A stretch of DNA of 64,000 nucleotides. Origin: Alitta virens (taxonomy: Eukaryota > Annelida > Polychaeta > Phyllodocida > Nereididae). Position numbers and translations under genes: made by a program. Location: contig OW028579.1 in the NCBI GenBank assembly GCA_932294295.1, positions 4,311,370-4,375,369 of the forward strand, in the 5' to 3' direction. The notes under the pieces are model-generated. The model did not search any database. It was not told where the DNA came from and saw only the letters and a list, made by a program, of their open reading frames with translations. This document shows positions 15,872-63,349 of this stretch, piece after piece; position 1 is the first letter of the stretch; the number at the start of each line of letters is the position of its first letter.

Positions 15872-15874
15872 AAT

Positions 15875-15897
15875 TGGAGCCCGATGTGGGACTTGAA
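15875..15897 (+). promoter_or_regulatory. Primer-binding site, tRNA-Lys-like (copy 1)
   Basis: It begins TGGAGCCCGATGTGGGAC, 3 nt after the LTR. The second copy (58176) reads TGGCGCCCGATGTGGGACTC. That complements a lysine tRNA 3' end of the type ...CGGGCGCCA, as used by several retroelements. Copy 1 has C-to-A and C-to-T changes. Confidence 0.75.
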
Positions 15898-16180
15898 GAC
15901 TCGATTGTAGGGTTCCCCAATGGACGAAAGACATGGATGACGCATGGACATAAAGAACTTTTTGAAAAAAATAACTTTACGACAGCCACGCTGGATAAAG
16001 GCGTTCGCGACCGCGTGGTCTGGTCAGTTGCAGCGTAACACAGGAACCGTCAGCATCTACATTGAGCGTCAGCAGCATCAACGTTGCGACTTGATAACTT
16101 CAGACTACACGTATCTACAGTTAAGTAGAATTCACACTACAATACTTTATCTTATTTAGTGTGTTTTGCCCCGCCGTACA
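15898..16180 (+). other. Untranslated leader of gypsy copy 1
   Basis: This lies between the primer-binding site and the first gag ATG (16181). It is nearly colinear with the same region of copy 2 (58199-58478). There is no ORF longer than a few dozen codons. It probably holds packaging signals, which cannot be identified by eye. Confidence 0.6.
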
Positions 16181-19651: not shown

Positions 19652-21480
19652 CCACAGTCGGCTCAGGAGAAGCCGAGGAACCCCAGGTGCGAGTGTGTGT
19701 GGCAGGGGCTGGAGAAACGGCTGGAGAACCGGCTGGAGAAACGGCTGGAAAGGGAAACATAAGATCTCTGGATCCAAACTGGATAGAGTCTTTCACCTTG
19801 GAGGAAATACGGTACGCTCAGGGCCAGGATATGGCCATAGCGACCGCCAAGAAGTGGCTAGATGCTGGACAGCGCCCGCCGTATCACGACATTGTCACGC
19901 ACTCGGCCCAGGTGCGGAATATATGGGCCCAGTTCTATTGCTTGAAATTGCAGCGAGGCATCATGTATCGAAGCCACAAGCTGCCTACAGGTGAATTAGT
20001 CAGCCAGATGGTGGCCCCAGCAAGCATCAGACGCAGCATCTTCAACCAGCTTCATACGTCTCGTCTTGGTGGCCATATGGGGATTAACAGCCTCATATCC
20101 AAGTTGAGACGGAGGTTCTATTGGCCTGGCTACAAGGAAGACGTGATACGGTGGATAGGTTGGTGCGATGTGTGTCAGAAGCGGAACCAGGGTGGCCTGA
20201 AAAGGGCTCCCCTGCACCAGGTGCCAGTTGGAATGCCGATGGAAAGAATGGCCATTGATATTATGGGACCATTGCCTGTCACGAAGTCCAATAACAAGTA
20301 TATAGTAGTCGTGGCCGACTACTTTACTAAGTGGACAGAAGCCTTCGCCCTTCCTAATCAAGAGGCTTATACGGTGGCTGATTGCTTGGTAACCAACGTG
20401 ATTTTGCGATTTGGGGCTCCCTATCACTCGCATAGTGACCAAGGGACTAATTTCGAATCGAAATTATTCCAAGAAATGTGCAAAATCTTGGGGATTAATA
20501 AGACCAGGACCACGGCTTATCATCCCCAGAGCGATGGGCTGGTGGAACGCTTTAACAGGTCATTGGGTGACATGCTGTCGAAGCTGGTTAATGACAGGAG
20601 GGATGACTGGGACGACATGCTTCCTTACGTGATGTGTGCTTATCGGGCTACGCCCCATAGATCCACAGATATCACGCCAAATAGGATGATGTTGGGCAGG
20701 GAGGCGATGCTCCCTGTGGACCTGATGTATGGCCACGCTCTCCAGCATAAGCACCACTGTCCAGTGGAGTATGTGGAGTAAATCCGTGATGCCATGGAAG
20801 AGTCCTTTGAGAAGTGCAGGTCGCAGATGAAAAGAGCAGCACAGAAGCAAGCTAAGCACTACAACAGGTTGGCGATGGAGCAGTCATTCCATATTGGAGA
20901 CTGGGTTTTGTTAATTTATCCGCCCCTGGCTAAGCAGAAGTTAGCTTTGAAATTCTTGGGTCCATACAGAGTTACGAGAAAGATGGGAGAAGTCAATTAT
21001 GAAATTGAAGCTCCAGCGACTGGCAAGAAACGCCTCGTTCACATTAATCAGCTCAAGATGTACTTAGCTGAGGTGACTCCAGACGACATGATCCGGATCC
21101 CTGATATTCCATCAGACGATCCGTATTTGGACCCATCACTGTACGAGGACGGAGCAAGTGCGACCCCCCTCGACGAGGGGCGGGATCCGCCCTTGCCCGG
21201 AGAATTGAGTGGTGACGCAGCGCAGCCTTGGTCTGGGCGGCCAGAGCGGGGCGGAGCTGCGGGGACTGGAGGACACAGGGGGCGCGGCTTGCAAACACGT
21301 GGTCCCCTGGACACGAGGAGTTTGACAGATTCGAGTTTGAATCTGGATACGGCTCCTTTTCCGGATTTGGAGCTGCCCTCAGCTCCTTTTCGGGAATTGG
21401 ATCCGGAGGCGGCTCCATTTCTACCAGGTAGGCTGAGGAAGCCACCTGATAGGTTAGGCCACAATGTAGGCTACCAGTAA
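19640..21480 (+). pseudogene. pol part 2 of gypsy copy 1: integrase with GPY/F domain and stop codon
   Basis: After a short Gly/Glu-rich repeat (GETAGEPAGETAG, from 12- to 15-bp DNA repeats) comes the integrase. It has an HHCC zinc module (LHTSRLGGH ... CDVCQ) and a DDE core: MAIDIMGPL, HSDQGTNF, and YHPQSDGLVERFN with the catalytic E. It ends at TAA (20779-20781), where copy 2 has TGG. The same frame resumes at 20782 and encodes the GPY/F module (LKFLGPYRV) and a Pro/Asp-rich tail with repeated LELPSAP-type units. The core looks otherwise sound. The stop makes this copy defective, unless it is a sequence error. Confidence 0.9.
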
Positions 21481-22647
21481 CTTTAAGACTCTGGTTCCTG
21501 CATATCAGAGGGAAATAGCACTTATTGCTTGACTTCTGGCACTTTGTTTTTGAGAATCTAGTGATCACATGTTTATACAATAAATACCAGTTGTAGTTCC
21601 ATTTAGACAATATATAGTTTGATTTTACTTAGTCTTCCCCATGCACATGATTTTTATTTAATTTTTTATTAAGGATTCTCTCAAACACGTAAATGTCGAC
21701 ATTTTAAAGAGGTGCGTCGCAGCAGTCACTTTTCAGTGACTGGACATTTCGTGTACCTGATTCTCATGGACGGAACACGTGGTCGTGTCCTGCAGAGTGG
21801 GTTTTTAGACGTGCCACCCAAATGGTCACTACAAGTGCAGCCCTTTTTGAATAAAAGAGGGAGGAATACTGCAAAGGTAGAATTTGGGCACTGCTGGTTA
21901 AAAGCAGGGGCAAACACGAAATTAGGTAATAAGAATGGGAAAAATGCCTCATAACACTGGTAATATCAGGAAAATAACTTAATTGGCAAGAATTAAGGGC
22001 TGTAGTGGTTATGGAAATGTTTAAATCCCATGGTAAACTTTATATGGCTGGTTGGGTAATCTGGATAGGTCAGCAAAAGGATATAATTTGCTAGACTATG
22101 GTTACAAGGATAAATGGTTATTTTCTCGGAGTATTGTGGTAAAATGATAAGGAATTGGCTATTTTGTCATCATGGAACGTGAAACGTTCCTGATGGTTTG
22201 TTTTCTTTGGCTCACAAAAGTTGCTAAATGACACATTTCTTTCCTAGGAAATTCTCACTTTCTATATTTCCTGAAACTGTGTCACTGCTTCCAGTGACCT
22301 GCATTCATGGAAAATTTCCACTGGCGGAAAAGGTCAACCAAGTTCGAAATTCGAACAGGCACCCCTTTGTACTAATTTTGTCATTTTCGGTGCAGTCCTC
22401 AATTAAGAAATTTTATAGAGGGGGGGGGGGATGAAGGGTCAACTGGTCAACAAGGTGATTAGGGTCACATGACCTGTGATTCTGGTCACCTGACCTGTGA
22501 TTTTAGTCACATGACCAAGAAAGTGCGGCAAAAAGCTGGAGGGAGTGGGGCGCCCTGTCTCACACCTTCTGCAACCAGCGAAGAGAGAACACATAGCCAT
22601 TCGGAAATTTTGAAAGCATAACCACGAGGACTTTCTGCATTTAAAGG
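21481..22647 (+). other. Spacer between integrase and ORF3 of copy 1, with a conserved short frame
   Basis: About 1.17 kb, nearly colinear with 60652-61846 in copy 2. A short frame (21712-21954, 80 codons; core GHFVYLILMDGTRGRV...FLDVPPKWSL) is open in both copies and differs at few residues. Recent common ancestry explains this as well as selection does. There is a G-run at about 22422-22431, then three GTCAC[A/C]TGAC palindromes (see 22464-22515), then the ORF3 leader. It may carry an internal promoter or a splice acceptor for ORF3. Confidence 0.55.
22464..22515. promoter_or_regulatory. Three GTCAC[A/C]TGAC palindromes at 21-bp steps
   Basis: GTCACATGAC lies at 22464, GTCACCTGAC at 22485 and GTCACATGAC at 22506. 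They sit at exact 21-bp intervals, two helical turns. Each contains an E-box-like CANNTG core. Copy 2 keeps all three (61659, 61680, 61692), but the last interval has shrunk to 12 bp. They lie 130-185 bp before the ORF3 ATG. A regulatory role is inferred. Confidence 0.45.
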
Positions 22648-23797
22648 ATGTCTTCAGCAAACCAGACCATTGAGGAGGCTACTGCTGTGCCAGCAGTGCC
22701 CCTGGAAGACGAGAGACAAGGACAAGACGAGGGACCCCAGCTAACGTCAGAACAGACTGACATGGTGTGGGCTGCCATGGAGGCAGCGGGCCTCGAGGTC
22801 GGGGCCGAGCTTGAGGTCTCTGCCAGCGACGCTGAGGTGGCTGCCGTTTGCGGCTTGTCACCCACGTCTGAGGTTCAAATCTCCCTTGCCCCGGATTATT
22901 GGAGCCAGCAGAGGTTGGGACTCCTGCACCTGGACATGTGGGCCTACATGTCCAGGAAGGAATACGAGTCAGAGGACCCGGCGGTTAAGCAATACGGGTC
23001 GGCTACTTTACCCGAGATGGCGAGGATGCGACGGTATCTTCGTCTCCGCCCCCGGAGAGAAGACATGCCGATCCACAGTGGTTGGATCATCGGAGACCTG
23101 GGTGTTGCGACCACCCAGGAGGAGGTAATGGAGAATCTAAGGAGGCGACCTTGGTACGCCAAGGAGAGGGTAACCAGGCCAGGTGCAGAGGCCGAGGTCC
23201 CTCGTCCCGAGGCTACCAAGTCGCCTGCCCAAGACGCAAAGGCAGCTCTGCCAACGGAGGCTGCCAGGGGGGAAATCACCACGACTCCGGCAAGAGCCGA
23301 GAAACGGCTGGAGGGAGAGAGCATCGACAGCGCAGGGGCCACAGACAACGGAGGAACCGAGAGTGACGTTTCGGCCCCAGACAGCACCCCCCAAAGTCGT
23401 CCTGCCAGCTACGCCCCGGGACGTAACAGGGCTTAATTATATGTGCGCTACCTGCGGGAAGCGTGTGAGAGACCGCAAGTCTCTCACTCGCCACGTGAGC
23501 GTGGCTCACGCAGTAGCGTATGTGGGCTTCCAGTGCCCTGAGTGTCCCGCTGCGCTACCATCAGACAGGAGGACGAATTTCCGGCGACATCTGGAAAGGT
23601 CGCATGGATACACCCGCTTACGGGCTGAGGAGGTGACAGCGGCCACGGGACTGACAAAAATCCAAGGGCCGAACACCGATGGATCTCTGCCGGCAACACC
23701 GGAGATGAGGGCCCTGGTCAGCAGGGCGCCTTCCTCTCAGGCCACTGCGTCCACGAGCACCAGGGTGGTGCCGATGCGTGATACGATGGTACGATGA
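22648..23797 (+). pseudogene. ORF3 of copy 1: C2H2 zinc-finger accessory protein, broken
   Basis: The extra gene in the env position. The N-terminal 170 residues (from MSSANQTIEE) form an unrecognised domain with blocks APDYWSQQRLGLLHLDMWAY and LRLRPRREDMPI. An acidic, Ala/Pro-rich linker follows. The frame then breaks at a C-run (about 23385-23390), which is one base longer than in copy 2. The shifted frame encodes two C2H2 fingers: CATCGKRVRDRKSLTRHVSVAH and, after 13 residues, CPECPAALPSDRR...HLERSH. Copy 1 then ends at TGA (23797) because a deletion removed the coiled-coil tail seen in copy 2. There is no signal peptide or membrane span, so it is not an envelope gene. Function unknown; DNA or RNA binding is likely. 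Confidence 0.85.
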
Positions 23798-24421
23798 CCA
23801 ATGATGACGACCTGGAACGCGCCCCCCACGAAATGGCACCTGGATACGGACTGGACTTGAACGCTGGATATCAACACATCACGCAGAGGCGGATCACACA
23901 CCACGCGGGGAGCCAGGAGGTAATGCAGCGATGGGAGAAGTTATGACTTTTATAATGGCCAAGTAGAAACCTTAAGGCCTGGAAAATTATGGATACTGGC
24001 TAATTATAACAATGTCATCACTCGAAATTACGAGCAGCTGGTTTTCCCGCGCAAAAAGACCTTGCAGATCCAGAAAGCAGTACTGGCCCTTGTCCAAGGC
24101 GGAAGATGGACATGGATAATAGACTCTGTGTGTATTGTATGTCTCTGTGTGTTGTGTGTTATGTTTGCAGCAGTGGCAAGAGGCAACCATGAGGATAGCG
24201 GTCCAGTCCAGTGGAATAACCAGGCCTGGGGGTGAGCGTGACAGCTCTCTAGTGTCATGTCGTAGGCGATTGTCATTTATGATTTATCATTTATGATTTT
24301 TTGATTTTTGTGAATTGTATGAATGAATCTCGTTTATTTATGTCGTCCTGATCGTCGTCGTACAGCCTACTCAATGTATTAGTTTGAATATGGGGGCATA
24401 TTCCCAGTAAGAAGGGAGTAA
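23798..24421 (+). other. 3' untranslated region and polypurine tract of copy 1
   Basis: Colinear with 63370-64000 of copy 2, with no ORF. It ends with AAGAAGGGAGTAA just before the LTR, which serves as the polypurine tract. Confidence 0.7.
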
Positions 24422-24639
24422 TGTGATGACCCCAGGTCACTGACCTTACTAGGTCAGTGACCGACTTGATGCGCACTGGGTGACCCGGACCACGTGACCA
24501 CGGGGTCTTGGCGGGAATACACCCAGACCGCGTCAGTAGCTGAAGAAGCAGACGTTAGACAGGCTGTGCGGCGGGGCAGGGCAAAATAAAACTTTAAAAC
24601 TGGAAAATTAACACTTTGTCTTTATTGGGGAACCTTACA
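24422..24639 (+). repeat. 3' LTR of gypsy copy 1 (218 bp)
   Basis: Same length as the 5' LTR, with two differences. It is followed by the second ATAT of the target duplication and then by the resumed 3' UTR of the mag-like element. Confidence 0.93.
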
Positions 24640-25082
24640 ATATAATATCTGTATGACTTCTTAATAAGTTCAGAGTTCGCATTTAAAATGTCCAGATGTA
24701 ATAATATCGTTTGGCTGTCAGTTTTACAATTGTACTAGTCACATTTAGGGTGATATTTTAGAGAGAGTCAGTACCTTACAAAACTAAGACTTTGGCAAGT
24801 TTGAGATGATACTAGAACACACATAAATTTGGCACTAGGGTTGACTACAAGAATACACATGAGATGCTGTATAGGTAGACACATGTTAAGACAATAATAT
24901 TCCTACGTAATTACAATGCAAATTACAAAGGGTGACATGTAGTCCCGTAAACATCAACTTTTGTGAGATTCAACATATAAGCAAGACAGTAACTGTGAGT
25001 GAGGTATGTACAAACAAAATATATATGATGTACATACAGTCTTATGTAGGTGCATTCTACAGATTACATCAAGAGTCACAGT
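24640..25082 (-). other. 3' untranslated part of the mag-like element
   Basis: Non-coding AT-rich DNA between the nested insertion and the end of pol. Together with 15620-15653 it forms the host element's 3' UTR. Nothing else was seen. Confidence 0.6.
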
Positions 25083-28000
25083 TTATAAATCGAGCCACGT
25101 TGCTCTTTTAGAGATGCGACCACTTCTGGTTTTAGTTGCACCGTCAGGGGTGTTGCTACGAGTGGGGGTTCCAGGTTTGGAAGCACTTTCTGGGGGCTCG
25201 TCTCGAGCAGGTGTCTGTAGGCGAGGCGTCTGGGCATTGGGGAACAGAGGGGTCACAGGGGGAGTTGATGGTCTGGCCGGGGAGTAAGGGAGCTGTTGGG
25301 ACACAGGGGTTTGCACATTGGGGGTTTCACGAATGTGCTGTCTGTTTCTCCGGACAGTATTGCCATTGGTGTCGCGAACGATGTATGATCTGTCACTGTG
25401 TTTAGCAACTATCACGGCAGGGTGCCAATGTCCGTTGGGTTGTTGGACATGTACGGTCTGGTCTGCTTGCAGATCTGGGAGTTCCTGTCGTCTTGCATGA
25501 CGGAAGTCAAAATTGGCTTTCTGAGTTTCCTGGCGAGCTTGAAGTGCTTGGAACGTATTTTCGTGGTCCCGTGAGTGGGTTGCGTTTGTGGGGAGTGTTG
25601 AGCGTAGCTTGCGTTGGAAGAGTAATTCACCAGGGCTAGCGAGGTTGTGGGAGATTGGTGTTGCATGCCAATGGAGGAAAGCAAGATAGGGGTCCGTTTG
25701 GGAGTTTGATGCTTTCTCCAAGATGTGTTTGACCGTTTGCACATGACGTTCAATAAAACCATTTCCCTGGGGTCGTCGCGGGGAAGTTGTGATGTGGGTG
25801 AAGTTCCATGAACTGGCGAATGCTGCAAAAACATCACTGGAGAAGTGAGGGCCGTTGTCGGATATGACACGTTCTGGGATGCCCATTTCAGAAAAAGTTA
25901 GTTTGAGAGTGTCAATCACGACTGCACTAGGCGATGGACGTGGAAGTTTCCGGATGATTGGATATTTAGAGTAATAGTCAGTGATGAGCAGCCATTGCCT
26001 GTTTTCAGCTTCAAATAGGTCGACCGCAACATGGGACCATGCACATGATGGGATTTGTGGCTGTTTCAAGGGCTCCTTCTGCTGTGTTGGCTGGATTGAC
26101 TGGCACTGTGTGCAAGACTTGACGAGATTTTCGATGTCCTTGTTGATGTTTGGCCAGAATATGCACTCTTTGGCCAGCAGCTTTGTTTTTTCAATGCCAA
26201 GATGTGCAGTGTGTAAGGTTGTCAGAATATCCGATTGTAGCGAAGGGGGTATGACAATCTGTGAGCCTTTCACTGAAATGCCATCTGTGACTGACAGCTG
26301 GTCTCGGACATTCCAGTAAGGGCGAAGATCTGGCGTTAGATCTTGGATAGTGTCAGGCCAACCTTGCGTGATGACTGTAAGTAGAGAGGTCAGAGTTGCA
26401 TCTCTTGCAGTTTGTTCTCTGAGTTGTTGCAATTTTTTGTCTGTGAACCGGACAAAATCCACTCTTATGTCCAAATCAATCGGATCAGCATTTGTGCACG
26501 GCAGCCGTGACAAACCGTCCGCGAGTTGGTTGTCAAGACCCTTTCTGTATGTTATGGTGAAGTTGTAGCCTTGCAGGCGGATTAGCATGCGCTGCAGGCG
26601 ACCTGGTGCTGCCGTGAGTGGTTTGTCCACTATGGTCACAAGTGGTTTGTGATCAGTTATGACTTCAAAGTTTCTTCCGTACAGGTATGTGTGGAAGCGA
26701 TGGACTGCGAAGACGATTGCAAGCAGTTCGCGTTCGATACAGGCGTAGTGTTGTTCGGTTGGTGTAAGGCTCTTGCTTGCAAACGCCACTGGACGTAGAA
26801 CGTTGTTTTCATCCGTCTGTATGAGGGCTGCGCCTACGCCACGGAGACTGGCATCACAGTGCAGTTGTGCTGCTTTTGTAGGATCATAGTAACGTAAGAC
26901 AGATTGCGCTGTGACCAGTTGTTTGAGGTTGTCGAAACAGAGCTGGTGATGGGGTTCCCACAAGAAGATAGTGTCTTTCTTGAGGAGGTCTCTGAGCGTT
27001 GATGTTCTCTCGCTGAAGTTGGCAATGAATGGAGATAAGTACATGAGAAAACCCATTCTGGGTGGCCTCTCGATAGCGGTCTTAAGACCTTAGAGAGGCC
27101 TCCCACACATAGAGAAAAATACATTTTAAATATTTCTTTACTTGTTTATTTGTCTATTTTTCTATGTATGTTTCAAACAATGTCTGTATATGAAATGTGT
27201 GTCTCTTTGTGTAAATAAATGTCTTTGTCTGTCTGTCATAAAGCTTTGCAGCTCAGTTTTGTTTAGAGGGGCTGGCATTGTGGTCAGATCCTGGATCTTC
27301 TGAGGATCAGGCTTGACCCCTTCAGCGGAGTAGGTGTTACCGAAGAACGCTATTTCCTTAGCTTTGATGATGCACTTCTTTGAGTTGAGGGTGAGGCCAT
27401 GTGCTGAAGCGACCTGTAGAAAATTCAGCAGATTCTTGTCGTGTTCGGTTTCGCTTGAGCCATAGACGACAATGTCGTCTCCGATGCCACAAGCTCCTTC
27501 GCATCTCTCTAGGATTCTGTCCATTTCCAGCTGGAAGAGATCTTGTGACACACTTAATCCGAAGGGCAGGCGTTTGAAACAATAGCGTCCGAAAGGCGTC
27601 TGGAATGTAGTGAGTTTTTGGCTCACTTCATCTAATTTTACAGCCCAGTAGCCAGATTTGGCATCGAGTTTTGAGAAAACTTTAGCATTTCTGAACCTGT
27701 AGTTGATCTCTGGCACTGTCTTCATCATGTGCACAGGCCTGATCAGGGCCTTGTTGAGGTGTCGTGGATCCAGACAAACGCGAAGGCTGCCGTCACGTTT
27801 GGTGACGCATGTGAGGGAGCTAACCCATTCTGTGGGCTCCTCTATCTTCCTAATGACATCTTGTTTGACCATTGAGTCGAGTTCTTGTTTGATCTTGTCT
27901 TGCATTGCAATTGGTGTGCGTCGAGGGGCGTCAATGTGTGGCGGGACGTGAGGGTCTACGTGTAGTCTGTGGATGTTGGGGAAATTGCCAATGCGATCAA

Positions 28001-28690
28001 ACATGTCGGGGAATTGCGTGATGAGGTCACGAGTGTCCTGGATGGGTTTGTGGTCAGATACAGCGCAGTTGAGACTGACCACGTTCATGTCGATGCATGA
28101 CCGCAGCCCGAGGATGGCTGGGCCATGAACGTCAACAACAAAGAAGCTAACTGTGTGCCATGAGGAGTTCTGGGCTTTGCACAATATATCGACAGTTCCT
28201 GCACACTGGATTGGGGTGTTGTTGTAAGCACATAGAACTTTGTTGGTAGGTGTGACAGCATTGTGCATTGGAATGCCGTCTTCATCAACTTTGTGGGGCC
28301 ACATTTGACTGAAAGTTCTGAATGGCATTGTGTTTGCCTGGGCTCCAGTGTCTACTTTTACCCTGAATGTGTGGGTGCCTGGACGGCCTTGGACTCGAAC
28401 TTGCAGTGAGGTGAAAGCTTCGTCACGGTCTTGTTGCACTGTGGAGATCATCAGGCTGTCAAAAGTGAGGGCTTCCTGCCATTGTTCTGAGAGTTGCTCA
28501 TCAGATACGACATGCACCTTTCTGTTGTGTGTCGGGGTTTGTCGTCTCCTATTTCCGTTGTTGCCTGACTGTGGGTTGCGTGACGATAAACAGACAGATG
28601 CCCAGTGTCCTTCGTGGTTGCACTTGTCGCAGATGCTGTTGCGGGCTGGGCAGTGTTCTCGACCAAAAGATGACGGCGACCGCAGCATTT
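25083..28690 (-). pseudogene. pol of the mag-like element, interrupted by a 180-bp insertion
   Basis: Read on the minus strand. Second zinc knuckle: CDKCNHEGHWASVC. Protease: VKVDTGAQANTMP. RT: LDPRHLNKA, KLDAKSGYW, FKRLPFGL and catalytic GIGDDIVVYG. RNase H: LHCDASLRGVG, then YACIERELLAIVF and ITDHKPLV. Integrase: LHTAHLGI with CTQCQ; DDE residues in AVDLFEAE, ISDNGPHFSS and QGNGFIERH. The C-terminus ends SGRISKRATWLDL. GxGDD and integrase details fit the mag/SURL branch. Between TELQSF and YLSPF a retroposon tail (27057-27236) splits the gene. Pol is also offset from gag by one base at a T-run (about 28673), so the copy is inactive. Confidence 0.92.
27057..27236 (+). mobile_element. 180-bp retroposon tail inserted in the mag-like pol
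   Basis: Flanked by CAT at 27054-27056 and 27237-27239. Removing the insert restores a continuous RT-RNase H reading frame. It contains CTCTCGATAGCGG and CTTAGAGAGG, like 4703-4836, and ends AATAAATG followed by (TCTG)n. It is a 5'-truncated LINE or SINE 3' end. Confidence 0.75.
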
Positions 28691-29416
28691 GCAGGCGGAG
28701 AGTGATTTTGTTTGTTGTGTGGTAGGCTCACGTTTCTGTCTGAAGTTGCGAGATGTAGACTTGCCTTGTTTGGGGCGTGCTCCCCGTGATGCTCCAACTG
28801 CAGCAACTGGTACGGCAGGTTCTGCTGTTGCGACTGGTTGGAGTGAACGTATTTGCTTGCTATGCGCGTTGCTTGCCTCGTATGTACGACCAAGAGTGAT
28901 GGCTTGGGTGAGTGTGAATTTGTCATCTTTCTCTAACAATTCTTTCTGAAAGTCATCAATGGGTGTGCTGGCAGTCAGCAGCTCCAGTAGTCTAGAATGA
29001 AGTTCAGGATCAGAGAATTTGCACTTTCTTGCCATGAGCCTGCATCTATTTATGAAAGTGTCTACAGTTTCTGTAGGCAATTGTATGCACTTGCTTAGTT
29101 TTAATCTGCACACTCTGAAGTTTTCAGCTGGTTCGAGCTGGTCCATGAATGTTTGAAAAATAAAGTTTACATCTTTCTTTTGGTCTGCTGTGATGTCCCA
29201 ACTGTTGAACCGTCTGATGCCTTCGTCGCCGGTTGCCAGCAGTACGAGCGCGACTTTATCCTCGTCTTTGGTTTGCTTGACTTGGAAGTAGAGCTCAAAC
29301 TTTTGTTTGAAGAGCATAAAAGCTTCTGGTAGGTCCGATGATGACCAATCGAGCGTTGGCTTCATGTTATCGTTCGGCATTTTGCAGCTGTGTTGAGTGC
29401 GTTTTGCGTGTCTCAC
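28674..29416 (-). pseudogene. gag of the mag-like element
   Basis: Starts at the ATG at 29416 on the minus strand (MRHAKRTQHS), although the ATG 11 or 15 codons later is an equally good start. The retrotransposon gag/capsid region includes FMLFKQKFELYF, FNSWDITADQKKDVNFIF and LPTETVDTFINRCRLMARKC. A basic stretch and the first zinc-knuckle half (CKCCGRRH) follow. In this group the reading frame usually continues through a second knuckle into pol. Here it shifts by -1 at CTTTTGG, so the next residues (FGREHCPA) are read in the pol frame. A one-base loss from the T-run explains this; programmed frameshifting is the alternative. Confidence 0.85.
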
Positions 29417-41251: not shown

Positions 41252-44200
41252 CGTCGGCCTCCTGATGAAACCTGCTATCTCCATTTTTGCCCAAAATGAG
41301 ATATTTGTTTGTAGCCCTTAGTTTTGAATACGCCCATGTTCTCATTAAAAAATATCACGTGATTTCTATTATTAATGAGGGCCAAAAGCAGGTTTAAAAT
41401 TCTGCTATGTCCAAACTGCTCAAAGCTATCCTAATAAAACCTGCTATGTCCCTACAGCTGTTATTGTGATTCCAGTCTCAGAGTATCTTGTCCTGATAAA
41501 ACCTGCTATGTCCAAATTCACAGCTCTTATTGGTTGGAATCATGACATCATGATAATTTTTCTTAAGCTCACAATCAATGTTTGTGCCAGTGGTGCCTGA
41601 AACTGGTAAGTTGTTTATTTTTCATACCTATTGTTCAAATCTTGGTAAATAGGACGATTGCCACTTAGTGGCTAAAAAGACAAACAGTGACGTCACATTG
41701 GGACAATCAGGGCCAGAGGTGGGTGTAGGGGGGGGGGGGGGGTGACATTGTGTGAATGCGTTTGTGCAGAAAAGTTTTCACAAAGGAATTAAGAAGTCAT
41801 GAATTATGAAGTACAGTATAACTTGGCTATAAACACTCAAACACATAATGGTCTTTTGTACACATTATTTCGAATGTTTCTCTAAAAAACACAACACAGT
41901 TACATAACAATACAATAGTAACTGTTCCAAAATTCAATCACAATTCAATCAAAATATAAATAAAATGTACCTTTGTAAAACTGCTCAGCTTTGTACTTAT
42001 TTCATTAATAGGTAATAATGAAGAAGTTCAGCCGAGGCTGGCAAATTCTTCAAAGAAGTGTGAAAACAAAGCCGAGAGAAGAGGTCTCTAATGAACAACC
42101 AAAAGATGTGAAAACAAAGCCGAGAGAAGAAGTCTCTAATGAACAACCAAGAGGTGTGAATACGAAGTCAAGAGAAGAGGTCTCTAATAAACAACCAAGA
42201 GGTGTGAAAACAAAGCCAAGAGAAGAGGTCTCAAAGGAACAACCGAAAGATGTGAAAACAAAGCCGAGAGAAGAGGTCTATAATGAACAACCGAAAGTCG
42301 TGAAAACAAAGCTGAGAGAAGAGGTCTCCAAGGAACAACTGAGAGGTCAATGCCTTATATACAAAGTTTTGCTGAGGCCTTTATTTATATCAAGATTATA
42401 ATAACATTATGATCATAATATAAATAAAAAATAATCAACAGATGATAGAATCCATTATGTGCATACCGTAAGTAATATTTTCAATTATTATTTTTTCAGA
42501 GTCCTCAACTCAGGAAAATGTAACTGCAGCAGAATTATTTGAAAGCATGTTCACTCAGGATTTCTCTGAGGATGAAATGGAGCCTGACCTTGAGCCCCCT
42601 TTGAGTACTTCACTTGCGGAGGAACTTCTTGAAGCCATGGGACTACAGATAGAAGTTGAACAGATGCAAACTAAGGAAACAGAGATTGAAATTAAAGAAA
42701 TAGAGATTGAAAGTGAGGAAATACAGATTGAAACTGAGGAAATACAGATTGAAACTGAGGGAGTCCAGTTTGAAAAGAAGGGAGTGCAGACTGACACTGA
42801 GAAAACTGATGTAGTTGAGGATGATGATCACCAGTTGGACCCAGACTACCTGCCATCTGACCATGAGTCCACTATCATTGACACAGAAGACACAGAAGAC
42901 ACAGAGGAGCCTCAGGTACTGCAAAGTGTCGAGAACATCCATACTGATGATAGTGCCATTGAAGAACAACCAAGAAAGAGAGCCAAGAAAGCCCAACCCG
43001 AAAAATGGAAGCAAAATTTGAACAAACAAAAGCGTGAAAAGGGAGATGTATATGAAGGCTCCAAAATTACTAGTGGTGCCAGAAATAAAGTAAGAAAGCC
43101 TGCCAAAAAGTTGAAAAATCGTTGTGCCTGCAAGGAATCGTCTAACCGAAAGTGCGGAATGTTCACTGAAGAGGACAGACAAGAAATTTTCAATTTAGTG
43201 TGGAAAAAGATGAGTTGGGGAGAGCGGAAAATCTGTGTGCAAGGGTTAGTAGATGTTGCACCCACCCAAAGGAAACGAACTGACGCCTTAAATTCAAAGA
43301 AGAGCAATACACTGAAATATTATCTGAAACAAGATGGAGAGTGTATGCAAGTCTGCAGGAAAATGTTCTTATCCACCACTGGGTTAGGAAGGTGGTCAGT
43401 TCACAAGTGGGCAGTACAGTCAAAGTCGCTAGATCAACCAGGCAGGGTAAGATCACAATATTACAAAAGAGCAGAGGCTGGCAGGGAGTTCATCAGATCA
43501 GAATTTCTAGGTAAACTGGCAAAGATGCCTTCTCACTATTGTAGAGCCTCGACTGCCAAAGAGTATTTGGAACCAATCATATCATCAAAGGCCGAATTGT
43601 ACAAACTGTACAGACAAAAGTGTTCCGAGCTTAACAAATCTCCTCTGTCTCAGCAAATACTTGATAATGAATTTGAAAACATGAACCTAGCTCTGTTTCA
43701 GCCTAAAAAGGATCAGTGTGATCTATGCGTTGGCTATGAAGTTGGTCAAATTTCAGAGGAGGACTGGACAAACCACAGACAAAAGAAAGATGAAGCGAGA
43801 CAGGAAAAAGTTAGAGACAAAGACCTAGCCACACAGTGCCTGAAGCCTGAATACAATGGTAAGAAAATCCTAGTTGCATGCATGGACATGCAGGCAGTGC
43901 TACTAGCTCCTTCACTACAGGCATCAGCACTGTACTACAAGCAAAAATTAGCTGTACACAATTTTACCATTTTCAACTTGGCAACACATGAAGTTGTGTG
44001 CTATGTGTGGCATGAGGGTGAGGGAGGCCTCACATCCAGTGAGTTTTCTTCGTGCATCACTGATTTTCTTTCAGAAAATTTGGATTATGATGAGTTCATC
44101 TTGTACTCAGATGGTTGTGGGTACCAAAACAGAAATGTGGTTTTGTCCAATTCCCTCTTGCGATTTTCTGCAATTCACAACAAAGTAATAATGCAGAAAA

Positions 44201-45443
44201 TATTAGAAAAGGGTCACACCCAAATGGAGGTGGACTCGGCCCATGCCAAAATCGAAACAAAACTTCGCCCTAAGCACATCCCTGTCTATGTCCCAGCAAC
44301 TTACATTGACATCATTAAAAGCGCTCGTATCCACCCCCAGCCTTTCAAAGTGAAATACCTGGAACACAGCTTTTTCAAAGATTTCTTGAATGTGGGCCCA
44401 TTTAAGTCTATCCGGCCAGGGAGCAAGGTGGGAGACCCAACTGTTTCAAACATTAGGGCACTGAAGTATACACCTGATAAGAAACTCCAATACAAGCTGT
44501 CTCACTCAGAGGCTGAGCACTGGAGTGTCTTGCCAGCACCTCGTCGTCAAAGGGCAGCAGGGACCCTAGCCCCAGGACCTGTTCCATTGTACTCAGAATC
44601 AGGGAAAATTTCTCCAGCAAAATGGCAAAATCTACAGGAGTTGAAGTCTGTAATTCCAGCCGATTTCCACAGCTTTTATGACAATCTTCGCAAGGAAACT
44701 GAGAATTAAATCTGTTTCTTCTCAGCTGTTTCTCCCTTTAAAAGGTTTTGATACATAATTGTAGACTCATGCCTTCACAAAGTAATTCATGATCAAATGG
44801 TTGTTGCACTAAATCAGATTATACCAATATAAGAAATCGAAATATTCTTCAGTTTTGTTGAATACAGTATTTTATGGTGTTTGAACAATATCAGTATCTA
44901 GAGTGTTTTTAAATCTTTTTAATGTAATTTTCAAACTGAAAAGATAATTTCTAATTTGGCTTGTGGTCAGGTTAGTTAATCAGTTGACAAATAAAAGTCA
45001 TTTTATGCAAATTTTATGTGTCTTTGTTTGAAGTTCTAGTGCCTGCACGAAATGTGTGATTTCCCCCTTTACTTTCAACCAACATAATCAGAAAGCACTC
45101 AAGGCGTGCAAACCTCTGGAGATGTTCACAATAACTCAAAATGATTTTTGTAATTATCTTAATTTCATAATTTTACTATTATAATTACTATTATAACAAA
45201 CATGACCAGCTATGGAAACCTGCTATCTCCAGAAATTGGGGGCTGAAAAACTGCTATGTCCCGTAGAATTGTGAGACTGGCCAGTTGATCCTAGAAGTGA
45301 CCAGAATCGACTTTATCTTTCTAATTTTGATAAATAATGGCACTAGCCACTTTAAATAAGCATTGTTACAAAACAAATACGTTTTTTGCTTCTCCTGAAA
45401 AATTGCAAATTTGGAGATGTCAGGTTTCATCAGGAGGCCGACG
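41252..45443 (+). mobile_element. DNA transposon, 4192 bp, apparently complete
   Basis: Terminal inverted repeats of about 30 bp (CGTCGGCCTCCTGATGAAAC at the left, its complement at the right). Target duplication ATTT at 41248-41251 and 45444-45447. The motif ACCTGCTAT[G/C]TCC recurs near both ends (left about 41269, 41402, 41442, 41503; right about 45212, 45250), suggesting multiple transposase-binding sites. Inside is one transposase gene (42018-44709). A 4-bp target size is seen in a few cut-and-paste superfamilies such as Sola; the superfamily is not proven here. Confidence 0.85.
42018..44709 (+). CDS. Transposase of the DNA transposon, 2 exons, 845 aa
   Basis: Exon 1 42018-42345, intron with GT...TTTTTTCAG, exon 2 42500-44709; phase 1 joins as GAG. 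Exon 1 is mostly tandem 16-residue units (KTKPREEVSNEQPKDV type, about 6). Exon 2 opens with an acidic segment of repeating IEIE/IQIETEE units, then a basic stretch (RKRAKKAQ). A Cys-containing segment (CACKESSNRKC) and a CDLCVGYEVG motif follow. The C-terminal half looks like an RNase H-fold DDE/D catalytic domain: ACMDMQAVL (first D), LYSDGCGYQNRN (second D), GHTQMEVDSAH (E or D candidates). I know this type as an uncharacterised protein repeated in many invertebrate genomes, but cannot name the superfamily. No internal stop; it may be active. Confidence 0.8.
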
Positions 45444-57955: not shown

Positions 57956-58172
57956 TGTGATGACCCCAGGTCACTGACCTTACTAGGTCAGTGACCGACT
58001 TTGACGCGCACTGGGTGACCCGGACCACGTGACCACGGGGTCTTGGCGGGAATACACCCAGACCGCGTCAGTAGCTGAAGAAGCAGAGGATAGGCAGGCT
58101 GTGCGGCGGGGCAGGGCAAATAAACTTTAAAACTGGAATATTAACGCTTTGTCTTTCTTGGGGAACCTTACA
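57956..58172 (+). repeat. 5' LTR of gypsy copy 2 (217 bp)
   Basis: Matches the copy-1 LTR with a few changes (e.g. ACTTTGACGCGC for ACTTGATGCGC, GAGGATAGGC for GACGTTAGAC). The two IR-1 palindromes (57968-57980, 57985-57997) are unchanged. Confidence 0.93.
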
Positions 58173-58478
58173 AATTGGCGCCCGATGTGGGACTCGAAGA
58201 ATCGGTTGTAGGGTTCCCCAAGAATGGAAGACATGGACGACGCCTGGACATAAAGAACTTTTTGAAAAGAAATGACTACGACAGCCACGCTGGATAAAGG
58301 CGTTAGCGACCGCGTGGTTTAGTCAGTTGCAGCGGAGCACAGGAACCGTCAGCATCTAAATTGAGCGTCAGCAGCAGTGACGTTGCGACTTCAAATTTCA
58401 GACTACACAGATCTACAGTTAAGTAGAATTCACGCTATAATACTCTTTCTTATTTAGTGTGTTTTGGCCCCACGTACA

Positions 58479-59891
58479 ATGCCTGCAAAGTTACGTAGAA
58501 GACCTGACTTGGCTACAGCCGAAACGAGCGAGCCCGCATCGACTCCGGTGCCGGGCCCCTCGCAAACGGCGGACGAGTCGGTTCTACGCACTTCAACTAG
58601 GAGTAAAGTTATGCGAACGCCGGGACTCCCTCGTAGACGAGAGGCCACGGCGGATAGGACTCCAAGTCCTGGACTCGTAGTAACGAGCCGGGAAAGTAAG
58701 CGGATGACCGGCGATAGAGGGAACCGAAAGGAACCCTCGCCAGCTGAGTATGAATCGAATGATTCCTCCGCGTCTACGCCTGTTTCCTCGCCCGAAGGGC
58801 GGCCCTCTGTCGTCGAGCGTGCGGAACCACGTGGCTCGGCCCGGGCCGTCATAGCGGCCGATAGTACTCCGCAAAGGAGTCTAGGTTCCTCGGGGTACAG
58901 GCGGAGAAAAGAAGCTATTCCTCCAAAATATGACGGCCAGGGTACGGCCTTCATAGACCATTTAGACGAATTCACTCGGGTCGCCACTTTCAACAAGTGG
59001 ACGGACGAGGAGAAGTGTTTTCACCTTTGGACCAGCGTCACTGGTCAAGCTAAGCTGAAAATGCGGCCCTTAACTTATCGGGACGATTGGAGGGAGATGG
59101 TGAGCCAGTTGACGGCCCTGTTCTACTCCAATCGTGCCCTAGATGCATACAGAAATAAATGGTTAAATGCGAAGCGGGGCCCAGAGATGGACCTCGAAAC
59201 GTATGGGTTATTTTTGTTGGATCTCTCTCGGAAAGCGTATCCCGCTTCCACCCCCGCCGAGCAGGAACGCTTTGCAAAAGAGCGCTTCATGGAAACGGCT
59301 GGGTCCACGAGTATGAGATTTTGGTTGGCGGCTTTAAAGCCACCTACACTGCAAGAAGCCATTGATTTGGCAGTGCAGTATGAAGCAGCGTACGAGGCCA
59401 CGAAAACGAGCAAGCCTGACGTCGGGCCGGCTGGCGCTATCGCCTTGCCAATACTGCAGCCCGAGGCTTCCGTGGCTGCTACTGCTTCAGCGTCTATACG
59501 TGGCGGCCCGCCTTCTGAAAAAGAGGGAGCCATCACGAGGCAGGATTTGAAAGATTTAGTTTATTCTATAATGGGCGAGGTATTGGCCAAGGAAACTAAG
59601 GGAAAAGTTTACAGCAATACTCGCCAACAGGAGCAGGATTACTCACCTGAAACACGGAGATGTTATCGGTGCAAAAAGACCGGACATCTCCGCAGGAACT
59701 GCCCCAGACGTCAAGCCGATGACGATCGCTCATCAAGGCGAGCGTCCAGCAAGGACAGGGAACACCGATCGAGTAAGCACGGTGATAAACGGTCCAAAGG
59801 GCGGAGCGATCAGGGCAAAAAATCGAATGATGTTGGGCAGAGAGGCGATGCTCCCTGTAGACCTGATGTATGGCCACGCTCTCCAACATAA
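58479..59891 (+). CDS. gag of gypsy copy 2, intact core, fused tail
   Basis: Starts at ATG 58479 (MPAKLRRRPDL). Same layout as copy 1: disordered basic/Pro-rich N-terminus, gag helical domain (FIDHLDEFTRVATFNKW; LDAYRNKWLNAKRGPEMDLE), Ala-rich linker, CCHC knuckle (CYRCKKTGHLRRNC) and a Lys/Arg/Asp tail. No frameshift, unlike copy 1. After GKKS the deletion junction is read in the wrong frame, adding about 22 foreign residues before a stop at 59891. A nearly complete Gag may be made. It probably supplies particle protein if transcribed. Confidence 0.88.
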   Translation: MPAKLRRRPDLATAETSEPASTPVPGPSQTADESVLRTSTRSKVMRTPGLPRRREATADRTPSPGLVVTSRESKRMTGDRGNRKEPSPAEYESNDSSASTPVSSPEGRPSVVERAEPRGSARAVIAADSTPQRSLGSSGYRRRKEAIPPKYDGQGTAFIDHLDEFTRVATFNKWTDEEKCFHLWTSVTGQAKLKMRPLTYRDDWREMVSQLTALFYSNRALDAYRNKWLNAKRGPEMDLETYGLFLLDLSRKAYPASTPAEQERFAKERFMETAGSTSMRFWLAALKPPTLQEAIDLAVQYEAAYEATKTSKPDVGPAGAIALPILQPEASVAATASASIRGGPPSEKEGAITRQDLKDLVYSIMGEVLAKETKGKVYSNTRQQEQDYSPETRRCYRCKKTGHLRRNCPRRQADDDRSSRRASSKDREHRSSKHGDKRSKGRSDQGKKSNDVGQRGDAPCRPDVWPRSPT

Positions 59892-60651
59892 GCACCACTG
59901 TCCAGTGGAATATGTGGAGTGGATACGTGAAGCCATGGAAGAATCCTTCGAAAAGTGCAGGACTCAGATGAGGAGAGCAGCACAGAAGCAAGCTAAGCAC
60001 TACAACAGGTTGGCGATGGAGCAGTCATTCCACGTTGGAGACTGGGTTTTGCTGTTTTATCCGCCCCTGGCCAAGCAGAAATTAGCTTTAAAATTCTTGG
60101 GTCCATACAAGGTGACGAGGAAGATGGGAGAGGTCAACTATGAGATAGAAGCCCCAGCCACTGGAAAGAGGCGCATTGTCCATATTAATCAGCTTAAGAT
60201 GTACTTAGCTGAGGTGACCCCAGACGACATGATCCGGATCCCTGACATTCCATCAGACGATCCGTATTTGGACCCATCATTGTATGAGGACGACGCAAGT
60301 GCGACCCCCCTAGACGAGGGGCGGGATCCGCCCTTGCCCGGAGAATTGAGTGGTGACGCAGCGCAGCCTTGGTCTGGGCGGCCAGAGCGGGGCGGAGCTG
60401 CGGGGACAGGAGGACACAGGGGGCGCGGCTTGCAAACACGCGGTCCCCTGGATACGAGAAGGATGGCAGATTCGAGTTCGAATCTGGATACAGCTCCTTT
60501 TCTGGACTTGGAGCTGTCCTCAGCTCTTTTTCCGGATTTGGAGCTGCCCTCAGCTCCTTCTCGGGAATTGGATCCGGAAGCGGCTCCATTTCTACCAGGT
60601 AGGCTGAGGAAGCCACCTGATAGGTTAGGCCACAATGTAGGTTACCAGTAG
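59827..60651 (+). pseudogene. C-terminal remnant of integrase, gypsy copy 2
   Basis: Begins within the integrase end (NRMMLGREAMLPVDLMYG) and carries the GPY/F module (LKFLGPYKV) and the Pro/Asp-rich tail. The frame is open and reads Trp where copy 1 has a stop. It has one more LELPSAP-type unit than copy 1. All catalytic residues are deleted upstream. The same frame extends back to 59719, out of frame with gag. Confidence 0.88.
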
Positions 60652-61846
60652 CGTTAGGACTCTGGTTCCTGCATTTCAGAGGGAAATAGCACTTATTGCT
60701 TGACTTCTGGCACTTTGTTTTTGAGAATCTAGTGATCACATGTTTATACAATAAATACCAGTTGTAGTTCCATTTAGACAATATATAGTTTGATTTTACT
60801 TAGTTTTCCCCATGCATATGATTTTTATTTATTTTTATTAAGGATTCTCTCAAACACGTGGTAAATGTCGACATCTTAAAGAGGCGCGTCGCTGCAGTCA
60901 CTTTCTAGTGACTGGACATTTCGTGTACCTGATTCTCGTGGACGGAACACGTGGTCGTGTCCTGCAGAGTGGGTTTTTAGACGTGCCACCCAAATGGTCA
61001 CTACAAGTGCAGCCCTTTTTGAATAAAAGAGGGAGGAATACTGCAAAGGTAGAATTTGGGCACTGCTGGTTAAAAGCAGGGGCAAACACGAAATTAGGTA
61101 ATAAGAATGGGTAAAATGCCTCATAACACTGGAAAGATCGGGAAAATAACTTAATTGGCAAGAATTAAGGGCTGTAGTGGTTATGGAAATGTTTAAAATC
61201 CCATGGTAAACTTTATATGGCAAGTTGGGTAATCTGGAGAGGTCAGCAAAGGAATATAATTTGCTAGATTATGGTTACAAGGATAAATGGTTGTTTTCTC
61301 GAGGTATTGTGATAAAATGATAAGAAATTGGCTATTTAGTCATCATAGAACGTGAAACGTTCCTGATGGTTTGTTTTATTTGGCTCATAGAAGTTGCTAA
61401 ATGTCATATTTAGCAACTAGGAAGTTCTCACTTTCTGTGTCTTGTGAAACTGTGTCACTGATTCCAGTGACCTGCATTAACTGATTCCAGTGATCTGCAT
61501 TCATGGAAAATTTCCACTGGGGAAAAAGGTCAATCAGGTTCGAAATTCAAACAGGCACCCCTTTGTACTAATTTTGAAATTTTTGGTGCAGTCCTCAATT
61601 AAGAAATTTTATGAGGGGGGGGGGGATGAAGGGTCAACTGGTCAATAAGGTGATTAGAGTCACATGACCTGTGATTCTGGTCACCTGACCTGTCACATGA
61701 CTAGAAAGTGCGGCAAAAAAGCTGGAGAGAGTGGGGCGCCCTGTCTCACACCTTCTGAAACCAGCAAGGAGAAGACAACTAGCCAGTCAGAATTTTAGCC
61801 AGTCAGAATTTCGAAGATACAACCACACAACTTCATACATATAAGG
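60652..61846 (+). other. Spacer between integrase remnant and ORF3, copy 2
   Basis: Colinear with 21481-22647. Retains the short GHFVYLILVDGTRGRV frame (60908-61114), the G-run at about 61617-61624 and the three GTCAC[A/C]TGAC palindromes (61659, 61680, 61692). Confidence 0.6.
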
Positions 61847-63349
61847 ATGTCTTCTGCAGACCAGAACAGAGAGGAGGCGACTGTTATGCCAGCAGTGCCC
61901 CTGGACAACGTGGATGAGGGAGAAAGACCCCAGCTAACGTCAGAGCAGACTGACATGGTGTTAGCTGCCATGGAGGCAGCAGGCCTCGAGATCGGAGCCG
62001 AGCTTGAGGTCTCTGCCAGCGACGCTGAGGTGGCTGCCGTTTGCGGCCTGTCACCCACGTCAGAGGTTCAAATCTCCCTGGCCCCGGACTATTGGAGCCA
62101 GCAGAGATTGGGACTCCTGCACCTGGACATGTGGGCCTACATGTCCAGGAAAGAATACGAGTTGGAGGACCCGGCAGTGGAGCGGTACGAGTCAGCAACA
62201 CTACCCGAGATGGCCAGAATGAGGAGGTATCTTCGTCTCCGCCCTCGGAGAGAGGATATGCCCATCTTAAGCGGATGGATAATCGGAGACCTGGGTGTAG
62301 CGACCACCCAGGAGGAGGTTATGGAGAGTCTCAAGAGGCAACCTTGGTACGCCAAGGAGCGAGTGGCCAGGCCCAGCGCAGAGGGCGAGGTCTCTTGCAC
62401 CGAGGCTACCAAGTCGCCTACGAAGGAACCCCAGGCAGCTCCGCTTACGGAGGCTGCCATGAAGGAAGTCGTGACCACTCCAGCCAGGGCCGAGGAACGG
62501 CCAGGAGAAGGGAGGCTGGAGGAAATGGAAAGTGAGGGGACAACAGATGACGGAGGGGCGGAGAGTGACGTCTCGGCCCCGAGTGACGTCTCGGCTCAGG
62601 ATAGCACCCCCAAGGTCGTTTTGCCGGCTGCACCCCAGGACGTTGAGGGCCTCAACTATATGTGCGCCACCTGCGGGAAACGCGTGAGAGACCGCAAGTC
62701 TCTCACTCGCCACGTGAGCGTGGCCCACGCAGTGGCCTATGTGGGCTTTCAGTGCCCTGAGTGTCCCGCTGCGCTGCCCTCGGATAGAAGGACAAACTTC
62801 AGACGTCACCTGGAGAGGTCCCATGGCTATAACCGTACACGGGCTGAGGAGTTGACGGTGGCCACAAGTTTGACGACTATCCATGGGCCCAACTCGGACG
62901 GGTCGCTGCCAGCAACGCCCGAGACGAGGACCCTGGTCAGCAGGGCGCCTCCCTCCAAGACTACAGCATCTACAGGCACCAGGGTGGTGCAGATGCGCAG
63001 CGCAGAAGCAGCTTCGAACGTGTCGCCCCGAAGCCGCCAAACGACACCCAAGCGGCCCCATTCTGCAGCAACAGTCACCAAGGCACCAGCAGCAGTGGCC
63101 GAGGACATGGTGACCAGGGCCCAGTACCAGGACATCGTCCTGGAGGTGCATAGGGCCAGGTCGCAGACGGCCGCGTCGGCCCGCGAGAATGAGGAACTGA
63201 GGGCCAAGCTTCGCGCAGAAACAGAGCAACGCGAAGCCATGGCCCGGCAGTCTGACCTCCTATACCAGGAGGTCAAGAGGTTGACAGCTGACCGGAACAG
63301 ATGGATGGAGGAAGGAAGGGCAGCTGGATCCTCATCTGCAAGGCCTTGA
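61847..63349 (+). CDS. ORF3 of copy 2: intact 500-aa C2H2 zinc-finger / coiled-coil protein
   Basis: One uninterrupted frame from ATG 61847. Residues 1-170: unrecognised domain (TSEQTDMVLAAMEAAGLEIG; APDYWSQQRLGLLHLDMWAY; LRLRPRREDMPILSG). Residues 170-265: acidic Ala/Glu/Pro/Ser linker. About 271-320: two C2H2 fingers, CATCGKRVRDRKSLTRHVSVAH (C-x2-C-x12-H-x4-H) and CPECPAALPSDRR...HLERSH (C-x2-C-x14-H-x4-H). About 330-420: Ser/Thr/Pro-rich, basic. About 420-490: charged heptad-like segment (ENEELRAKLRAETEQREAMA), a likely coiled coil. No signal peptide or membrane span. Placed where envelope or accessory genes sit, same strand as gag-pol, with its own leader. Probably a nuclear or nucleic-acid-binding element protein; function unknown. 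It is intact although pol is gone. Confidence 0.88.
   Translation: MSSADQNREEATVMPAVPLDNVDEGERPQLTSEQTDMVLAAMEAAGLEIGAELEVSASDAEVAAVCGLSPTSEVQISLAPDYWSQQRLGLLHLDMWAYMSRKEYELEDPAVERYESATLPEMARMRRYLRLRPRREDMPILSGWIIGDLGVATTQEEVMESLKRQPWYAKERVARPSAEGEVSCTEATKSPTKEPQAAPLTEAAMKEVVTTPARAEERPGEGRLEEMESEGTTDDGGAESDVSAPSDVSAQDSTPKVVLPAAPQDVEGLNYMCATCGKRVRDRKSLTRHVSVAHAVAYVGFQCPECPAALPSDRRTNFRRHLERSHGYNRTRAEELTVATSLTTIHGPNSDGSLPATPETRTLVSRAPPSKTTASTGTRVVQMRSAEAASNVSPRSRQTTPKRPHSAATVTKAPAAVAEDMVTRAQYQDIVLEVHRARSQTAASARENEELRAKLRAETEQREAMARQSDLLYQEVKRLTADRNRWMEEGRAAGSSSARP

Follow-up and report, generated by a model that had tools for sequence, protein, structure and literature searches.

The annelid Alitta virens carries a family of Ty3/gypsy long terminal repeat (LTR) retrotransposons with a third open reading frame (ORF3) after pol, encoding a protein with two C2H2 zinc fingers. 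Two copies of this element, copy 1 and copy 2, lie in the stretch analysed here (64,000 nucleotides of contig OW028579.1, assembly GCA_932294295.1, forward-strand positions 4,311,370 to 4,375,369; "the window", to which all unlabelled positions refer). We propose, with a probability of about one half, that the ORF3 product acts as a dimeric DNA-binding regulator of the element's own LTR and of its own gene, through arrays of the short motif GGTCA (TGACC on the other strand). Observed directly are the gene, its spread, its linkage to pol, selection on it in this first family and its sister subfamilies, the arrays, and the recurrence of such arrays in one copy of a second family.

ORF3 encodes two C2H2 fingers and a long C-terminal helix

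ORF3 of copy 2 is intact and runs on the plus strand from ATG to stop over 500 codons (61847-63349). The initial annotation had divided the 500 residues into an unknown N-terminal domain, two C2H2 fingers and a coiled-coil tail, a division borne out by Pfam and AlphaFold, with the finger pair as a whole below its cut-off and the coiled coil a prediction. Finger 1 (residues 271-294; 62657-62728) matches Pfam zf-C2H2 at 27.4 bits (cut-off 25.2), and finger 2 (residues 301-326; 62747-62824), its ligands unchanged, falls within a zf-Di19-type two-finger match at residues 270-327 that scores below its cut-off. ORF3 has the C-x2-C ... H-x3-5-H ligand pattern of C2H2 proteins, and its eight zinc ligands are invariant, gaps aside, across 30 alignment rows and are likewise present in the second-family protein P0003 described below. 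The finger helices read VRDRKSLTRH in 31 and SDRRTNFRRH in 32 of the 36 rows that were parsed (38 rows were given, two went unparsed and one was mis-parsed). At the C-terminus, AlphaFold (AF2) predicted a single helix over residues 424-495 (63116-63331), a predicted coiled coil, with a block predicted local distance difference test score (pLDDT) of 86-97 over most of its length.

The N-terminal domain (residues 28-185; 61928-62401) is of unknown fold. It gave no Pfam match and no match in the PDB below E 0.1, and AlphaFold, working from thin alignments, modelled it at low confidence (mean pLDDT 45 and 43); it is recognisable in the second family. With ORF3 as query, the finger region was the sole PDB match below E 0.1, and outside its fingers the protein matched no Pfam family. 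Among 5.8 billion proteins the only relative found was P0002 (one scan scored just the 7995 candidates that shared most words), which is nearest to young copies of this genome (89-90% identity, with gaps of repeat length). A search of IMG/VR with ORF3 and pol returned no match.

In-frame repeats (QQAAPxTExAxEDV and TRTPAAA) make the two ORF3 linkers variable among copies L029-L038, and because of this variation the open frame ranges from about 480 to 590 codons between copies. A second frame overlapping ORF3 (about 156-224 codons) was considered and rejected as coding, synonymous divergence (pS) there being 0.285 against 0.310 overall; since pS is hardly reduced, we ascribe this frame to the GC-rich sequence.

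ORF3 is widespread, linked to pol and kept by selection

The initial annotation had named three outcomes that would speak against a genuine third gene: absence of ORF3 from most copies, a dN/dS near 1, and descent from a host gene captured only once. None of the three held. In the genome searched (671,116,069 bases in 23 contigs), 40 of the 47 matches spanning ORF3 residues 1-500 contain no stop (86 places scored, the best of 959 candidates), and the open frame therefore exceeds chance. The more complete of 20 fetched copies share one plan. A first LTR of about 218 nt is followed by gag (about 468 codons), pol (about 1440 codons), a spacer (about 1.1 kb), ORF3, a stretch of about 690 nt and the second LTR (five copies are left out of the distance medians). 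Copies L009-L028 were chosen through an ORF3 match, which favours intact ORF3. Ten further copies (L029-L038) were picked by an integrase search for long open pol (1436-1440 codons); absent from the list of ORF3 matches, all ten have an open ORF3 (two are cut by the edges of the fetched sequence, one 3' and one 5', in L038 and L035). One locus, L009 (C6:15485831-15495830), holds two tandem copies that apparently have one LTR in common, with an ORF3 in each.

Linkage was counted with exact peptide motifs for the fingers and for the reverse transcriptase (RT), which have 172 and 287 genome-wide matches respectively, each against 0 in a reversed control. On contigs C1-C3, where the pairing is biased neither towards intact ORF3 nor towards intact pol, and among the matches listed, 37 of 43 family RT motifs are followed at 2-7 kb, on the same strand, by a finger motif, as are 3/5 sister-type RT motifs (classes were assigned by motif letters, the sister class after the pairs had been seen). 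Conversely, 40 of the 44 finger motifs have an upstream RT motif. Other RT classes gave 0/21; the notion that they are without ORF3 was nevertheless rejected, as only the exact finger motif is missing, a diverged ORF3 being present in copy L047.

Purifying selection keeps ORF3 in the first family and its sister subfamilies. Over the same 12 copies (66 pairs), the median ratio of non-synonymous to synonymous divergence (dN/dS) is 0.138 for ORF3 and 0.137 for pol; larger sets give 0.143 from 20 ORF3 frames, 0.173 from 11 of gag and 0.144 from 14 of pol. By part, the corresponding ratio of differences per site (pN/pS; 27 copies, with 3 of 30 ORF3 rows left out, namely L025, L015 and the upstream copy in L009) is 0.617 for the tip (residues 1-27), 0.133 for the N-terminal domain, 0.416 for the first linker, 0.042 for the fingers, 0.281 for the second linker and 0.056 for the coiled coil (residues 426-490), so that the fingers and the coiled coil are the most constrained parts. 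Among the ten young copies picked by integrase, these two give 0.000 and 0.020. Synonymous divergence is about twice as high in ORF3 as in pol in 12 of the copies L010-L028 (0.368 vs 0.173, larger in 63 of 66 pairs), against medians of 2-7% for differences in the spacer, 3' untranslated region (3'UTR) and LTR; ORF3 also has the higher GC content at third codon positions.

Eight sister copies (L039-L046) have an ORF3 that is 49-77% identical to that of copy 2, with a dN/dS of 0.12-0.21 that is rough since dS is above 1; between sisters the median is 0.200 (28 pairs). A second family was reached through another RT class (15 motifs on C1-C3). Its example copy, L047, carries downstream of RT a frame of 556 residues (P0003) with the same three parts as ORF3 and 29% identity to it from residue 32 to 493 (BLASTP of this single pair, E 5e-44). 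No stop interrupts 27 of the 30 rows that span all of P0003 (78 scored, the best of 976 candidates), and a P0003-like ORF3 lies downstream of 11 of the 15 second-family RT motifs. The third gene is thus present in the second family with open frames and the same layout, and ORF3 is accordingly old within the clade and not a single recent capture.

GGTCA arrays mark the LTR and the region before ORF3

The 5' LTR of copy 2 (57956-58172, plus strand, 217 nt, target site duplication (TSD) GCAC) contains seven GGTCA/TGACC sites, arranged as inverted repeats that include AGGTCACTGACCTTACTAGGTCAGTGACC. With no prior choice of motif, this is the commonest 5-mer of the LTR (7 vs 0.55 expected, 0/1000 dinucleotide shuffles), and any 5-mer at all reached seven in 2/1000 shuffles; packing of the sites was matched in 0/2000 shuffles for the first family. 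A second array precedes ORF3. In copy 2 it occupies 61632-61690, with five sites in both orientations (17.5 per kb over the 286 nt before ORF3, 5 vs 0.80 expected, 1/1000 shuffles; densest-110-nt test 0/1000). In copy 1, 22437-22516 holds seven of the eight sites found in 320 nt (0/2000 shuffles for the eight; 7 in 286 nt, 0/1000). Density is 32 sites per kb in both 5' LTRs of the window and 17-24 just before ORF3; outside the copies it is 1.94, and the 3'UTR stretches counted have no site. In other fetched copies the 286 nt before ORF3 contain 4-9 sites (16 listed), and by eye the upstream arrays expand and contract by a unit of about 21 bp, present in 1-3 copies and differing in number between sister families.

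With the motif fixed beforehand, the second-family LTR has four sites (5/2000 shuffles for their packing), and no enrichment appears in its 3'UTR (1200/2000) or its ORF3 (777/2000). Its spacer holds a cluster of four sites in 105 nt, at -309 to -209 (6/2000 in a 320-nt window; densest-110-nt test 2/1000), in windows chosen after the positions had been seen and, as for all second-family array results, in one copy. The LTR result is the cleaner of the two, because those windows were set post hoc. Clustering upstream of ORF3 is firm in the first family and less firm in the second.

Candidate signals for expression of ORF3

A candidate branch point and 3' splice site (TACTAAT...GGTGCAG; 61566-61591, plus strand) lies 255 nt before the ORF3 ATG of copy 2. 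The signal recurs in 19 of 22 copies, and 7 of 8 sister copies have it under a looser pattern; the pattern was not found in L047 of the second family, where a look-alike is visible by eye only, and a scan of 9 copies gave no conserved splice donor. In copies and sisters, a TATA-like stretch abuts the ORF3 ATG. The conserved acceptor-like signal of the first family favours a spliced ORF3 mRNA, and the TATA-like stretch together with the upstream array favours a putative internal promoter.

The start of the LTR (57956-58050) is a near-perfect inverted repeat whose transcript is predicted to fold as a strong RNA hairpin (z -4.1; in sister L044, z -2.7). The hairpin is absent from the second-family LTR (z +1.4), which keeps its TGACC sites, and was rejected as a feature common to both families. 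In both families the spacer before ORF3 contains a run of about 8-14 G (61615-61625 in copy 2; sisters; L047); it resembles the G-rich tract before the 3' LTR and may serve as an internal polypurine tract from which the plus strand is primed.

The two copies and their neighbours in the window

The initial annotation had placed a third frame between integrase and the 3' LTR in both copies. The frame stands in both; it is intact in copy 2 and broken in copy 1, where two overlapping frames (22648-23436 and 23183-23797) make up its plus-strand remains at 22648-23797, and only the C-terminus of integrase precedes it in copy 2. Copy 1 (15654-24639, plus strand; LTRs 15654-15871 and 24422-24639, TSD ATAT) has gag, protease, RT, RNase H and integrase in broken frames. 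Its Pfam matches follow the order gag-asp_proteas/Asp_protease, RVT_1, RT_RNaseH, then Integrase_H2C2, rve and p58_C, and this order of protease, RT, RNase H and integrase is that of Ty3/gypsy elements (Metaviridae). The LTR ends (TGTGATG...CTTACA), the 4-bp TSD and the primer-site sequence are likewise those of Ty3/gypsy LTR elements; a 4-bp TSD flanks each of the 12 insertions for which both ends were located (of 16 copies, four could not be evaluated).

In copy 2, the 5' LTR is followed on the plus strand by a primer binding site recognised by sequence (TGGCGCCCGATGTGGGAC, 58176-58193; its complement occurs 258 times genome-wide), a gag frame with a zf-CCHC match (58479-59891) whose end is altered by a pol deletion with its junction near 59820, and an integrase C-terminal remnant with Integrase_p58_C and SH3_Tf2-1 matches (59719-60651). 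Because about 3.15 kb of pol is deleted, nothing of integrase but this C-terminus precedes ORF3. Among the matches scored the junction is private, spanned by one of 40 (the best 40 of 337 candidates), and on this count an amplified family of deleted elements was rejected. The two LTRs of copy 2 are identical over 217/217 nt (the 3' LTR lies just beyond the window end, in L001) despite the loss of protease, RT, RNase H and half of integrase; since the LTRs are identical although pol is gone, either copy 2 was mobilised in trans or its loss of pol is very recent.

A minus-strand gypsy element from a different lineage, with gag, RT, RNase H and integrase (25083-29416), adjoins copy 1. The 443 nt that separate its last frame from copy 1 show no third frame, and 24641-25083 has 0 GGTCA sites, a weak control because the LTRs of this element were not located. 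Elsewhere in the window, a 48-bp tandem repeat precedes a frame of 720 aa without a Pfam match above cut-off (42005-44709).

A proposed self-regulator and its alternatives

If ORF3 regulates its own element, the protein would enter the nucleus, would dimerise through its C-terminal helix (one confidently predicted long helix suggests this), and its fingers would bind both halves of the inverted GGTCA repeats that stand in the LTR and ahead of the ORF3 gene; the resulting feedback loop would raise expression of the element or keep silencing away. DNA binding is likely, given classical C2H2 fingers with near-invariant helices, and co-location and enrichment make GGTCA the likely target. Of the functions that the initial annotation had entertained (directing integration, regulating the LTR, countering host silencing), the arrays favour the latter two, and we infer activation or anti-silencing rather than repression as the direction of effect. 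A broader form of the proposal, which we advance tentatively, is that an animal Ty3/gypsy lineage carries a sequence-specific transcription factor of its own. This factor would be a coiled-coil dimer whose two C2H2 fingers read GGTCA arrays in the LTR and before the ORF3 gene; it would activate or de-silence the element and would have co-evolved with the arrays across families only 29% identical in the regulator.

Several results weigh against the proposal. In the protein, the heptad signal of the C-terminal helix is weak (513/5000 shuffles were equally strong); the ORF3 frames of L039, L042, L043, L045 and L046 are broken or shortened, and zinc ligands are lost in L039 (finger 1, first His replaced by Q) and L043 (finger 2, first Cys replaced by G). 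Over the whole of ORF3, the ten young copies give a pN/pS of 0.302, with 1.009 in the first linker, and six of the 43 family RT motifs have no finger motif in the set range (one of the six has one about 1 kb away). As to the arrays, GGTCA ranks third upstream of ORF3, behind AAATT and CCCCC, and the remaining spacer is mildly rich in it too (about 4.6 per kb). Across sisters its sites in the LTR are not significantly better conserved than the remaining LTR sequence (0.896 vs 0.838, 51/216 shifts), and sites 6 and 14 decay. In the second family, beyond the post hoc windows and the single copy, the 286 nt before ORF3 hold just two sites (164/1000). The zinc finger code, as we apply it, presumably gives GAGG(T/A)C for ORF3, which matches AGGTC only in part and, having been derived after the motif was seen, carries little weight.

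The main rival, which we consider unlikely but by no means far-fetched, is that ORF3 handles RNA in the manner of CERV of the Cer1 element; the protein would be made from a spliced mRNA, would be nuclear, and would bind unspliced genomic RNA for export or packaging. The shared position as a third ORF after pol, the branch-point and acceptor signal (19/22 copies, 7/8 sisters) and the folding of the LTR repeat as an RNA hairpin in the first family and L044 all agree with it. Yet the hairpin is missing from the second family, where the TGACC sites persist, the acceptor pattern was not found there except as a look-alike by eye, no conserved donor was seen in the 9 copies scanned, the motifs stand in both orientations, and the fingers are classical C2H2 with near-invariant helices. 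DNA rather than RNA is favoured as the target because the sites occur in both orientations and the hairpin is lost in the second family.

AGGTCA is also the half-site of nuclear receptors, and inverted AGGTCA repeats are the usual shape of their sites; a host factor could for this reason read the arrays. A nuclear receptor or similar protein might drive the LTR, with ORF3 doing other work (in particles, or as a partner of Gag). We take the LTR start (57956-58050) to equal two inverted AGGTCA repeats of the nuclear-receptor type, and through this repeat the element may be connected with a hormone pathway of its host; moreover, motif and ORF3 are linked by position alone. Two observations tell against this explanation, which we regard as rather improbable: two diverged families have arrays both in the LTR and ahead of ORF3, and in the first family the fingers are the most constrained part of the protein. 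Encoded beside integrase and with fingers of the DNA-binding type, ORF3 might instead tether the integrase complex to chosen sites or chromatin. The directed integration raised by the initial annotation found no support through GGTCA: the flanks of 12 insertions hold 6 sites in 4314 nt, about 1.4 per kb and not above background (12 of 16 copies were counted, four being left out since a wrong LTR end had put element sequence into their flanks), and the 4-bp TSDs of these insertions differ in sequence. Targeting by GGTCA was rejected on the flanks, and a role in directing integration seems very unlikely. Hardly credible is an env-like glycoprotein or a decayed passenger gene; ORF3 does sit in the env position, but it has C2H2 fingers, a dN/dS of 0.14 and no membrane-spanning stretch, and env identity was rejected on the highest 19-residue hydropathy (1.17 in P0001, 1.0 in P0003), which indicates no membrane segment.

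Comparison with known systems

The initial annotation had held that a two-finger C2H2 accessory protein is not a described standard module, and our literature search agrees within its scope: among titles and abstract starts of the open-licence literature, with Repbase outside that scope, no C2H2 or zinc-finger third ORF of a gypsy element was found. Two surveys cover annelid gypsy elements (PMC8556966, which names Alitta virens, and PMC8220671); in the parts seen, "orf" does not occur in the former, nor "zinc finger" or "C2H2" in the latter, and neither reports an extra C2H2 ORF. Plant LTR retrotransposons, too, have additional frames beside gag-pol, and the words "zinc" and "finger" are absent from the text of a review of them (PMC7264820).

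As a third ORF with a nuclear role, CERV of the Caenorhabditis elegans Ty3/gypsy element Cer1 is the nearest precedent. It is translated from a spliced mRNA, is nuclear and is required for export of genomic RNA, and is described with a potential leucine zipper and a possible C4 finger (PMC10309623). CERV and ORF3 both follow pol in a Ty3/gypsy element, and are predicted multimers; splice signals precede CERV and a candidate acceptor precedes ORF3, the nuclear role being known for CERV (PMC10309623). By its description CERV is set apart through some N-terminal peptide in common with Gag and its possible C4 loop (PMC10309623), whereas the fingers of ORF3 are a pair of the classical C2H2 type, and arrays of a DNA motif lie alongside.

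The transactivator Tas of foamy viruses binds DNA and, to our knowledge, has no C2H2 pair. Like ORF3, Tas is an accessory gene in the 3' part of its element, with an LTR and an internal promoter and a logic of self-regulation (promoter and self-regulation being putative for ORF3); unlike the ORF3 element, its carrier is a retrovirus with env (PMC7828637). VANC, the anti-silencing protein of the Arabidopsis VANDAL DNA transposons, is likewise element-encoded and accompanied by a short motif that is arrayed in non-coding parts and multiplied by tandem repeats (PMC5735166), and such an arrayed motif is found in the element described here. VANC differs in belonging to a plant DNA transposon, in arrays of one orientation and in demonstrated binding, which for ORF3 is proposed (PMC5735166).

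The env position of Ty3/gypsy elements can evidently house a long-lived, selected gene of nuclear type. If the proposed self-regulation is true, a single protein and two short DNA probes would suffice for a direct test of how animal retrotransposons escape silencing. The usual view is that LTR retrotransposons rely on transcription factors borrowed from the host; this element would instead supply a DNA-binding regulator itself, its target arrays being recognisable in the very sequence that encodes it, and would be an animal counterpart of VANC and Tas combined.

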